Shown: one piece after another, positions 18,820-20,317 of the stretch | Numbering within the stretch: the first letter of the stretch is position 1 | Layout of the letters: every line of letters starts with the position of its first letter | Assembly: GCA_015152525.1 (NCBI GenBank) | Contig: SUTU01000011.1 | Span: 1 to 64,000 of the forward strand | Direction of reading: 5' to 3' | DNA: 64,000 nt | DNA from: Cyanobacteria bacterium SIG28 | Lineage (GTDB): Bacteria > Cyanobacteriota > Vampirovibrionia > Gastranaerophilales > Gastranaerophilaceae | The notes under the pieces: model-generated | Told to the model about the DNA's origin: nothing | The model's database searches: none | Seen by the model: the letters and a program-made list of their open reading frames with translations, nothing else | Made by a program: the position numbers and the translations under genes

Positions 18820-18887
18820 CTAAAAACATATAAAATTTTTTTTTGCTATTAATATTAGGATAAACCCTATAATGATATTTTTTTAAT

Positions 18888-18913
18888 AAAAAAGAGTCCC
18901 TTTTTGGGGACTC
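18888..18913 (-). terminator. Duplicated tRNA-locus terminator (distal copy)
   Basis: A minus-strand stem GAGTCCC / GGGACTC followed by TTTTTT. It is a near-identical copy of the terminator at 19089-19115. Confidence 0.75.
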
Positions 18914-18939
18914 CTCTTTAATTAGCGGAAGACGAGACT
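18888..18939 (-). repeat. Duplicated tRNA-Gly 3' end plus terminator
   Basis: The last 16 bases of tRNA-Gly (18924-18939 on the plus strand, AGCGGAAGACGAGACT) together with the adjoining spacer and terminator repeat the sequence at 19089-19141 with only one or two base differences. The two copies bracket a 150-bp palindromic element, as if an insertion had rebuilt the tRNA 3' end, a common outcome at tRNA target sites. Confidence 0.8.
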
Positions 18940-19088
18940 GTCTTGACCTGTTCGCATTAAACGTGCCTTCGTGTTTTGCTTCAAAGGATTTTATTCTTCT
19001 TGCAAAAACACTTCGCACTCTGCTCACAGGTCGCTCGAACTCGTTAAAGTGCTTACGCACTTGGAGTTCTCGTCTCTGTCATCCCATT
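18940..19088. mobile_element. Nested palindromic element inside the tRNA-Gly locus
   Basis: Three nested inverted repeats are visible: AGACGAGA / TCTCGTCT (18930-18937 and 19068-19075), GACCTGT / ACAGGTC (18945-18951 and 19026-19032), and GTGTTTTGC / GCAAAAACAC (18971-18979 and 19002-19011, one bulged A). A separate hairpin AAGTGC-TTAC-GCACTT lies at 19047-19062. No protein of its own; an open frame crosses it but looks spurious. It resembles a non-autonomous MITE or REP-type unit. Confidence 0.55.
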
Positions 19089-19115
19089 TAAAAAAGAGTC
19101 CCTTTTGGGGGACTC
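19089..19115 (-). terminator. tRNA-Gly terminator
   Basis: On the minus strand, GAGTCCC / GGGACTC with a short A/C-rich loop, then seven T. It lies 10 bases after the tRNA 3' end. Confidence 0.85.
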
Positions 19116-19125
19116 CTCTTTAATT

Positions 19126-19199
19126 AGCGGAAGACGAGACTCGAACTCGCGACAGTCTGCTTGGAAGGCAGATACTCTACCAACTGAGCTACTTCCGCT
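19126..19199 (-). tRNA. tRNA-Gly (anticodon UCC)
   Basis: On the minus strand a complete cloverleaf can be drawn: acceptor AGCGGAA / TTCCGCT (7 bp), a D-arm with GCTCAGTTGGTAGAG, anticodon stem TCTGC / GCAGA around loop CTTCCAA (anticodon TCC, reading GGA/GGG), a 5-base variable loop, and a T-arm with GTTCGAGTC. The length is 74 and CCA is not encoded. It is the only complete tRNA in the window and is followed by a terminator; its upstream flank is the 133-bp tandem array. Confidence 0.95.
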
Positions 19200-19634
19200 C
19201 ATATTTAATTTTCAAGACTTTTTTCTCTGCTCAGTCGGTAGAGTATATTTCCGGATACGTTCGGCTCTACTAACCTCACTTTTTTGAGTTACGTAACCAG
19301 CGCCTCACTTGGGCAACTGAGCTACTTCCGCTCATATTTAATTTTCAAAACTTTTTTCTCTGCTCAGTCGGTAGAGTTTATTTCCGGATACGTTCGGCTC
19401 TACTAACCTCACTTTTTTGAGTTACGTAACCAGCGCCTCACTTGGGCAACTGAGCTACTTCCGCTCATATTTAATTTTCAAAACTTTTTTCTCTGCTCAG
19501 TCGGTAGAGTTTATTTCCGGATACGTTCGGCTCTACTAACCTCACTTTTTTGAGTTACGTAACCAGCGCCTCACTTGGGCAACTGAGCTACTTCCGCTCA
19601 TATTTAATTTTCAAAACTTCTTTCTCTGCTCAGT
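19200..19634. repeat. 133-bp tandem array carrying tRNA-Gly 5' fragments
   Basis: The 133-bp unit is present three times plus a partial fourth (unit boundaries at GCTACTTCCGCT: 19188, 19321, 19454, 19587). The second and third full units are identical; the one next to the tRNA differs at a few bases. Read on the minus strand, each unit begins with the tRNA-Gly 5' end through the first half of the D-loop (AGCGGAAGTAGCTCAGTTG). It then diverges into about 75 bases with their own stems (GTAGAG / CTCTAC, CTCA / TGAG) and ends with a complement of the D-arm (GACTGAGC). GCTCAGT and ACTGAGC can close the unit into a cloverleaf-like fold. No protein coding. Confidence 0.9.
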
Positions 19635-19714
19635 TCAAAATAAGCTTATACAGTAGTACTTAAGTTTCACAAATGATTTTATATCAAACAAATTCCGTTT
19701 TCAAGTACTTTGTG

Positions 19715-20317
19715 TTAACTATTTTTATTTTCTTCTTGTTCAATATCTGTATGTGAATACAATGTTAAACTTAATTTTGTTAATAAAATCTTCTTATCTC
19801 TTGCGTGAGGTTCAGTCTTCAAGCTATTTATTTTTATATAATAATTATATTTATAAATTTGTTCTATCAATTTTCCTAAATCTGTATAGGTTGAAATTAG
19901 CTCAAGGTTAACATTACAAACAAAATATTCACCTTTTCCGTGTTTAACAAAGTTATCTTCAGCCGGATTATGAACATAATCAATCGATTTAATCTTAACA
20001 GAGTTTGCACTTACCATTTCCAACAAATCATTATATAAAGCGAAAAACAAGCCATCATCACCCAAATCTGATTCAATCGGATAATATACCTTTTTAGTTG
20101 AAGTTGAAACAGAATCTTTCAATTTTCTAAGTTTAGCTTCTATTACGCCTATTTGTTGTTTTTTAGTTGCCAAAATCGTCCTGTTCTTTTCTAAACTTTC
20201 TTTTGCACTTTTTTCTTTCTCTAGCAATGGCACTACAAAATTATAAGCACCATAAAATGTGAAAGCTACAATTACAACAAATAATAATATACCGTAATAT
20301 CTTTGCAATTTTTCCAT
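19715..20317 (-). CDS. pilO: PilO-like type IV pilus assembly protein
   Basis: A 200-residue bitopic protein: membrane segment at about 8-28 (GILLFVVIVAFTFYGAYNFVV), a coiled coil at 35-72 (EKEKSAKESLEKNRTILATK) and a C-terminal ferredoxin-like periplasmic domain (CNVNLELISTYTDLGKLIEQIY). This is the PilO layout; PilO pairs with PilN in the inner-membrane alignment complex. It starts 16 bases after the fused pilM-pilN gene, which supports the call. No PilP or PilQ gene follows. Confidence 0.8.
   Translation of the reverse strand: MEKLQRYYGILLFVVIVAFTFYGAYNFVVPLLEKEKSAKESLEKNRTILATKKQQIGVIEAKLRKLKDSVSTSTKKVYYPIESDLGDDGLFFALYNDLLEMVSANSVKIKSIDYVHNPAEDNFVKHGKGEYFVCNVNLELISTYTDLGKLIEQIYKYNYYIKINSLKTEPHARDKKILLTKLSLTLYSHTDIEQEENKNS

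Follow-up and report, generated by a model that had tools for sequence, protein, structure and literature searches.

In the usual view, bacterial tRNA output is set by promoter and growth-rate control. Several described systems resemble the array reported here. The rtT or RttR repeats of the E. coli tyrT operon (RF00391, RtT) share with it tandem units, an exact copy of a tRNA end, a core and an antisense strand, the last as measured in the present analysis and not taken from a published definition. They lie 3' of the tRNA and copy its 3' end, whereas the array lies 5' and copies the 5' end; the array further differs in its D-arm target, its core, its occurrence at many tRNA species and its position between promoter and tRNA. 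T-box riboswitches are transcribed leader RNAs able to pair with tRNA and shift their fold, as the array, presumably transcribed, may also do. Unlike them, the array stands upstream of tRNA genes themselves and pairs with the D-arm, not with the anticodon and the NCCA end. Rfam T-box models gave no match at E<=5 over positions 18850-19720, and no specifier-anticodon or T-box-NCCA elements were apparent by eye in the array. The T-box reading is not supported.

Displaced tRNA fragments of integrative elements are likewise partial tRNA copies beside a complete gene, but the array shows regular units, a conserved core, an inverted arm and a presence at many tRNAs, and it has no cargo, integrase or phage match. 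REP/RAYT (Y1) systems also consist of short structured intergenic repeats, and Y1 genes are present here, often near tRNAs. The tRNA units, however, are restricted to tRNA flanks, and the Y1 gene examined has a GTAG palindrome of its own. A search of open-licence papers brought up no account of leaders of this kind. Their place 5' of the tRNA, their presence at many tRNA species and an antisense strand that co-varies with the tRNA are, as far as we have checked, new.

Tandem units upstream of tRNA-Gly(UCC)

The window, a stretch of 64,000 nucleotides analysed at its full length, belongs to a 1.89-Mb MAG of 26 contigs. As originally predicted, it holds a single tRNA gene, a complete tRNA-Gly(UCC) at 19126..19198 on the minus strand, where all features described below also lie. 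This gene is the only one for its anticodon in the genome, which carries one gene per anticodon except for three CAU genes; tRNA production must therefore run through the antisense-bearing leaders described here. In minus-strand order, the locus consists of a promoter-like site, a partial unit, three units, the tRNA and a terminator hairpin (19096..19115, a palindrome followed by TTTTTT). The tandem 133-bp units of the original prediction are confirmed by their coordinates and by TRF, which reports a period of 133, 3.4 copies and 99% matches over 19181-19634, and identity is 98-99% across the full repeat length. Such agreement between copies supports the proposal that the units were amplified recently. 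Unit 1, the outermost, occupies 19465..19597, unit 2 19332..19464 and unit 3, which adjoins the tRNA, 19199..19331; the partial outer copy (19598..19634) comprises an antisense end and a boxA-like leader.

Each unit repeats 18 nt of the tRNA 5' end (GCGGAAGTAGCTCAGTTG) and joins to them a structured core, about 16-18 nt of antisense to the D-arm (ACTCTACCGACTGAGC) and the boxA-like motif TTGAAAATTAAATAT, which directly precedes the next 5' end. In unit 3 these parts lie at 19314..19331 (sense copy), 19247..19313 (core, with helix P2, GY-[GA]-GGC / GCC-[GA]-RC), 19229..19246 (antisense strand) and 19201..19215 (boxA-like motif, recognised by its sequence). The exact copy of the tRNA 5' end is thus 18-19 nt long, as had been claimed. 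The claimed complement of the D-arm proved stronger than described: ATACTCTACCGACTGAGC (19229-19246) complements D-arm bases 19172-19189 of the tRNA itself at 17/18 positions.

The promoter-like site, TTGAAA-17-TAAAAT (19676..19704), stands 5' of the entire array. Our search found one such site against 1.7 expected in shuffled sequences, and the real support for this putative promoter is its positional conservation, a similar TTGAAA-17-TATAGAAT being found in relatives 5' of Gly units and likewise before Gly genes without units. At relaxed Rfam thresholds (E<=5, 18850-19720), no family was found for the unit. The cloverleaf-like fold proposed earlier holds in part: a single unit folds moderately better than chance (z -2.3), but units score as no tRNA with RF00005 or ARAGORN, the Gly gene alone scoring in the array region. 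Nor is a decoy for tRNA processing specifically supported, as the units are without the acceptor 3' strand and the T-arm. Two further candidates were rejected. A self-processing leader that would stand in for a missing RNase P conflicts with the presence of RNase P RNA in the genome. An intron, with the unit spliced from the D-loop, conflicts with the second copy of the 5' exon at the unit's end, and no ribozyme family matched.

Occurrence of 5' units and 3' mirror-image units

Conservation of the unit beside tRNA-Gly in relatives had been named beforehand as a test. Among 30 Gly loci retrieved for the genus, most carry 1-3 units of 96-133 nt 5' of tRNA-Gly(UCC), between the conserved promoter sequence and the tRNA, and because of this recurrence we do not regard the array as a chance repeat. 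At other Gly loci of the genus, such as L027 and L032, promoter, short leader and tRNA are present without a unit. Clean pairs with and without the unit are also found at tRNA-Phe and tRNA-Leu(UAA); they differ by the unit alone and hold no cargo. Across Candidatus Gastranaerophilales, gut bacteria that are as yet uncultured, 1-5 units directly precede many tRNA genes, and the relatives with units bear the record titles Candidatus Gastranaerophilales, Candidatus Melainabacteria and uncultured bacterium. The window's genome has units before its Asp, Ile, Lys-CUU, Leu-UAG, Asn and Arg-ACG genes and two Met genes as well, and most of its other tRNA genes are without them. In relatives units additionally occur at Val, Ala, Phe, Pro, Leu-UAA, Leu-GAG, Thr, Trp and Lys-UUU. 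The proposed glycine-tRNA sensing is therefore too narrow, similar elements being found at other tRNA species (Val, Ala, Asp, Lys, Trp, Arg, Phe, Thr, Leu, Pro, Asn, Met and Ile), most of them with an antisense strand matched to their own tRNA.

We built a covariance model, R1, from 17 Gly units and one Val unit; its E-values are rough, since calibration was shortened. R1 matches 73/383 genomes and 20/52 sampled genera of the order Gastranaerophilales, nearly all of them belonging to one family; two other families have a single match each. A phylum-wide draw of 386 genomes yielded 25 with matches, all in that main family. Of the 39 matches checked, 35 precede a tRNA on their own strand, at a distance of no more than 20 nt in nearly all cases, and the other four lie at contig ends; the tRNAs found in this way include Trp, Ala, Lys, Asp and Ile. 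The unit is patchy, and relatives without it at the same tRNA evidently cope.

The core is conserved. In P2 (G-Y-[GA]-GGC / GCC-[GA]-R-C) both tandem G.A positions are invariant in 18/18 aligned Gly and Val units, and one pair is CG in 10 units and UA in 8. Counts of core structure exceed those of shuffled and slid controls on most measures, related sequences being prone to inflate such counts. RNAalifold alone proposed no more than 14 pairs. The tRNA-Lys-CUU and tRNA-Met loci of the window's genome (L048, L049) share a near-identical core, GGCACTCTGCCGATGAAAATCCGAACCGTTGAGGATTTTCAGAGAGG, which suggests that cores have moved between tRNA genes. This second core type, CUSUGCCGA-stem-GAGAGG, was also seen at Leu, Pro, Ala and Ile genes.

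The boxA-like TTGAAAATTAAATAT is similar to TTTGAAAACAGAATA of the 16S leader and TTGACAACTGCATAGA of the 16S-23S spacer of one relative (L256, G195), which served for the rRNA comparison as no 16S gene was found in the host MAG. A motif TTGAMAATTWAATA that resembles the rRNA motifs of this relative precedes many tRNAs, with and without units. By its sequence, this motif suggests a boxA-type site in tRNA leaders.

Some genes carry a mirror-image unit on their 3' side. There the terminator is followed in turn by an antisense to the gene's own T-arm, by a core and by a repeat of the tRNA 3' end, with a second terminator behind them. The window has one at 18887..19088, with a T-arm antisense-like strand GACAGAGACGAGAACTCC (19063-19080), a core, a displaced copy of the tRNA 3' end (18924-18939) and a copy of the terminator; its middle recurs near the Leu-GAG, Ile and Arg-UCU genes of the same genome. 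Further 3' units were found at other loci (L060, L131, L227, L233, L055, L058, L035 and L020), at least two tandem copies being present in L060. Their core often contains CGAGYGAGC ... GCGARCGAG.

In layout these 3' units are nearer to rtT than the 5' array is. The rtT repeat of E. coli K-12 (L257, 3' of tyrV) contains a T-arm antisense, GGGGAAGGATGAGAAGCTTCGA (score 14.5, 0/200 shuffles), together with a core and 19 nt that copy the tRNA 3' end. An antisense to the T-arm of tRNA-Tyr is likewise present in the tyrT-tyrV spacer of this strain (score 16.4). We found no description of a T-arm antisense in either rtT or this spacer. RF00391 recovers the E. coli rtT control at 133-138 bits and has no match in the window, nor in 18850-19720 at E<=5, nor among the Gastranaerophilales 3' units searched. 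What we claim for rtT and the Gastranaerophilales 3' units is a shared architecture, not homology.

Antisense strands matched to their own tRNAs

We scored 127 tRNA genes from five genomes for the best ungapped pairing between the last ~100 nt of the leader and nt 7-30 of the gene's own tRNA. Complementarity is bimodal: 19 genes score 10.5-18, a level reached in 0 of 100 dinucleotide shuffles (1 for a single gene), and the remaining genes score at most 9.3, the background level. The antisense strand is specific to its own tRNA. When each of 54 distinct antisense-bearing leaders was compared with the 5' halves of 96 other tRNAs, no more than 3 of these paired better than the leader's own tRNA (range 0-3, median 0). 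Among tRNA leaders fetched through R1, 33/37 pass the antisense threshold, which illustrates the pattern and does not test it, as R1 itself contains the antisense strand.

Changes in the tRNA are mirrored in the antisense strand. In Gly genes, GAGT is accompanied by ACTC in one genus and GAGC by GCTC in another, and CAATTGG is matched by CCAATTG in two loci (L317, L321) where CAGTTGG and CCAACTG are found elsewhere. The same holds for Trp (GTTC mirrored by GAAC), Asp (TTAG by CTAA) and Leu-GAG (GGTATAC by GTATACC), and for Lys, where GTCGG/CGAC in the window's genome corresponds to GTTGG/CAAC in a relative. At L028 a one-base deletion in the D-loop has a matching deletion in the antisense strand. 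In several lineages the antisense strand has followed the tRNA as it changed, so that it probably controls tRNA folding. Interior A-to-G changes that keep the pairing are common in the antisense strand, in a G.U test that is weak because few sites could show the opposite.

The antisense strand runs about 8 nt past what its own sense copy pairs with, and these extra nucleotides (ACTCTACC in Gly) match the real tRNA rather than the sense copy. Between neighbouring copies of an array, the sense copy, antisense strand and leader differ at 22/1582 sites and the core at 40/1446 (Fisher p 0.01). Within arrays, the core thus changes about twice as often as the other parts.

Precursors with 130 nt of leader were folded for the 19 antisense-bearing genes and 106 others. 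In all 19 antisense-bearing precursors the acceptor stem is predicted not to form (P<=0.04), and their minimum free energy lies 5.4-21.4 kcal/mol below that of the cloverleaf-constrained fold, against a median of 2.1 for the 106 others. These predictions come with the caveats that the same method predicts the D-stems of isolated tRNAs poorly, that some leaders without a long antisense strand also score badly, and that equilibrium folding takes no account of tRNA modification or of folding during transcription. In the 574-nt precursor of the window, tRNA nt 10-26 (the D-arm) are predicted to pair with the antisense strand at -30..-46, and the D-arm is also predicted to pair with the antisense strand when the last unit is folded with the tRNA. 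The closing stem between sense copy and antisense strand is absent from the predicted ensemble of the unit alone in many units.

A proposed folding switch and its alternatives

The reading we favour, tentatively, is that the array is a cis-acting folding switch on tRNA maturation. We infer that the leader is transcribed and switches in response to some trigger, to the cell's regulatory benefit. The units would be structured RNA modules in the 5' leader of the tRNA transcript. In one fold, the antisense strand of a module would pair with the module's own copy of the tRNA 5' end and leave the tRNA free; in the other, the last antisense strand would pair with the D-arm of the real tRNA, so that the 5' half is trapped and the acceptor and D stems do not form. 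The ~8 extra antisense nucleotides may act like a toehold for strand exchange with the real tRNA. The conserved core, with P2, may bias the choice of fold, possibly along with a ligand, a protein, or the kinetics of transcription or antitermination at the boxA-like motif, and this choice would set the share of precursor that matures into tRNA. Unequal recombination would account for the tandem copies. We favour a role at the RNA level because the antisense strand tracks its own tRNA, the core is conserved, the place is fixed and the units are restricted to tRNAs.

It is a more doubtful proposition that leaders with an antisense to their own D-arm amount to a general control of tRNA genes, acting as tunable folding switches on essential single-copy tRNAs across a single bacterial order, and that the mirror-image 3' counterpart is also found in E. 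coli, as rtT. If true, tRNA folding would be controlled one gene at a time by a leader antisense matched to the changing tRNA, and the unexplained rtT repeats of E. coli would fit into a common architecture and could be approached with a testable idea. Should mutation alone be the cause, these loci would clearly document, in nature, how inverted repeats form and are corrected at tRNA genes.

The main rival is such a DNA-level process without regulatory function, which we consider rather unlikely. The palindromic arms of tRNA genes would give rise to inverted copies through template switching, tandem duplication would amplify them, recombination would move cores between tRNA genes, and inverted-repeat correction would keep antisense strand and tRNA matched; the leader would be tolerated, fast co-transcriptional folding and RNase P outrunning the trap. 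Template switching can create and maintain RNA hairpins and matched inverted repeats with no need of regulatory selection (PMC8794818). Tandem duplication is clearly at work, as the units are near-identical and vary in copy number, and the patchy presence of the unit and the cores common to different tRNAs of one genome, such as Lys-CUU and Met, also fit this account. The mirror-image units on the 3' side speak for it as well: they lie partly beyond terminators, where an RNA role is harder to see, and this weakens the case for a leader-based switch. Against such a process speak the conserved core, which has an invariant tandem G.A and a compensating pair and is not derived from the tRNA, the occurrence of units in one orientation only, those on the 5' side between promoter and tRNA, and the slower evolution of the antisense strand than of the core within arrays.

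The units might instead, in line with the small-RNA cassette of the original prediction, be a source of trans-acting small RNAs, freed when RNase P cuts at the tRNA 5' end, whose antisense strand would bind new tRNA or other targets in a negative feedback. RNase P RNA is encoded in the host genome, the antisense strand is specific to its own tRNA, and in E. coli the rtT repeat next to a tRNA gene carries a small-RNA annotation. The D-arms of mature tRNAs are, however, structured and poorly accessible, and pairing in cis needs no release of the unit; we judge this improbable. An integration-hotspot scar, as suggested in the original prediction, or a non-autonomous mobile element, whether by duplication of an integrase attachment site or as repeats moved by Y1/RAYT, appears very unlikely. 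Partial tRNA duplications do look like attachment fragments that have been displaced, 36/63 genomes of the genus contain Y1 transposase ORFs, and 8/20 sampled Y1 loci lie within ~1.6 kb of a tRNA. The units do not support a scar, as they lie between promoter and tRNA at many tRNAs, have a conserved core, and show no integrase and no phage or plasmid match. The one Y1 gene read in detail (L260) is flanked by a different palindrome, GTAGGGTGCAATTTATTGCACC, the Gly-built R1 finds no copies away from tRNAs, and the present/absent pairs show the unit alone. Phage and plasmid records returned tRNA matches or nothing for the unit, and viral contigs gave no unit match. An assembly artefact is hardly credible: some relatives' arrays do lie at contig ends, but the unit recurs in many independent MAGs, as single units inside long contigs and as arrays inside an 814-kb contig. 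The exact copy numbers per genome are provisional.

Four viral-contig matches to an 18-nt pattern from the 3' core were found in GC-rich phage-like sequence without tRNAs and were read as chance. Y1 (RAYT/IS200-like) ORFs near tRNAs were seen in the window's genome at C6:8745, C15:106350, C19:56615 and C21:66526, and at L265, L269, L273 and L275.
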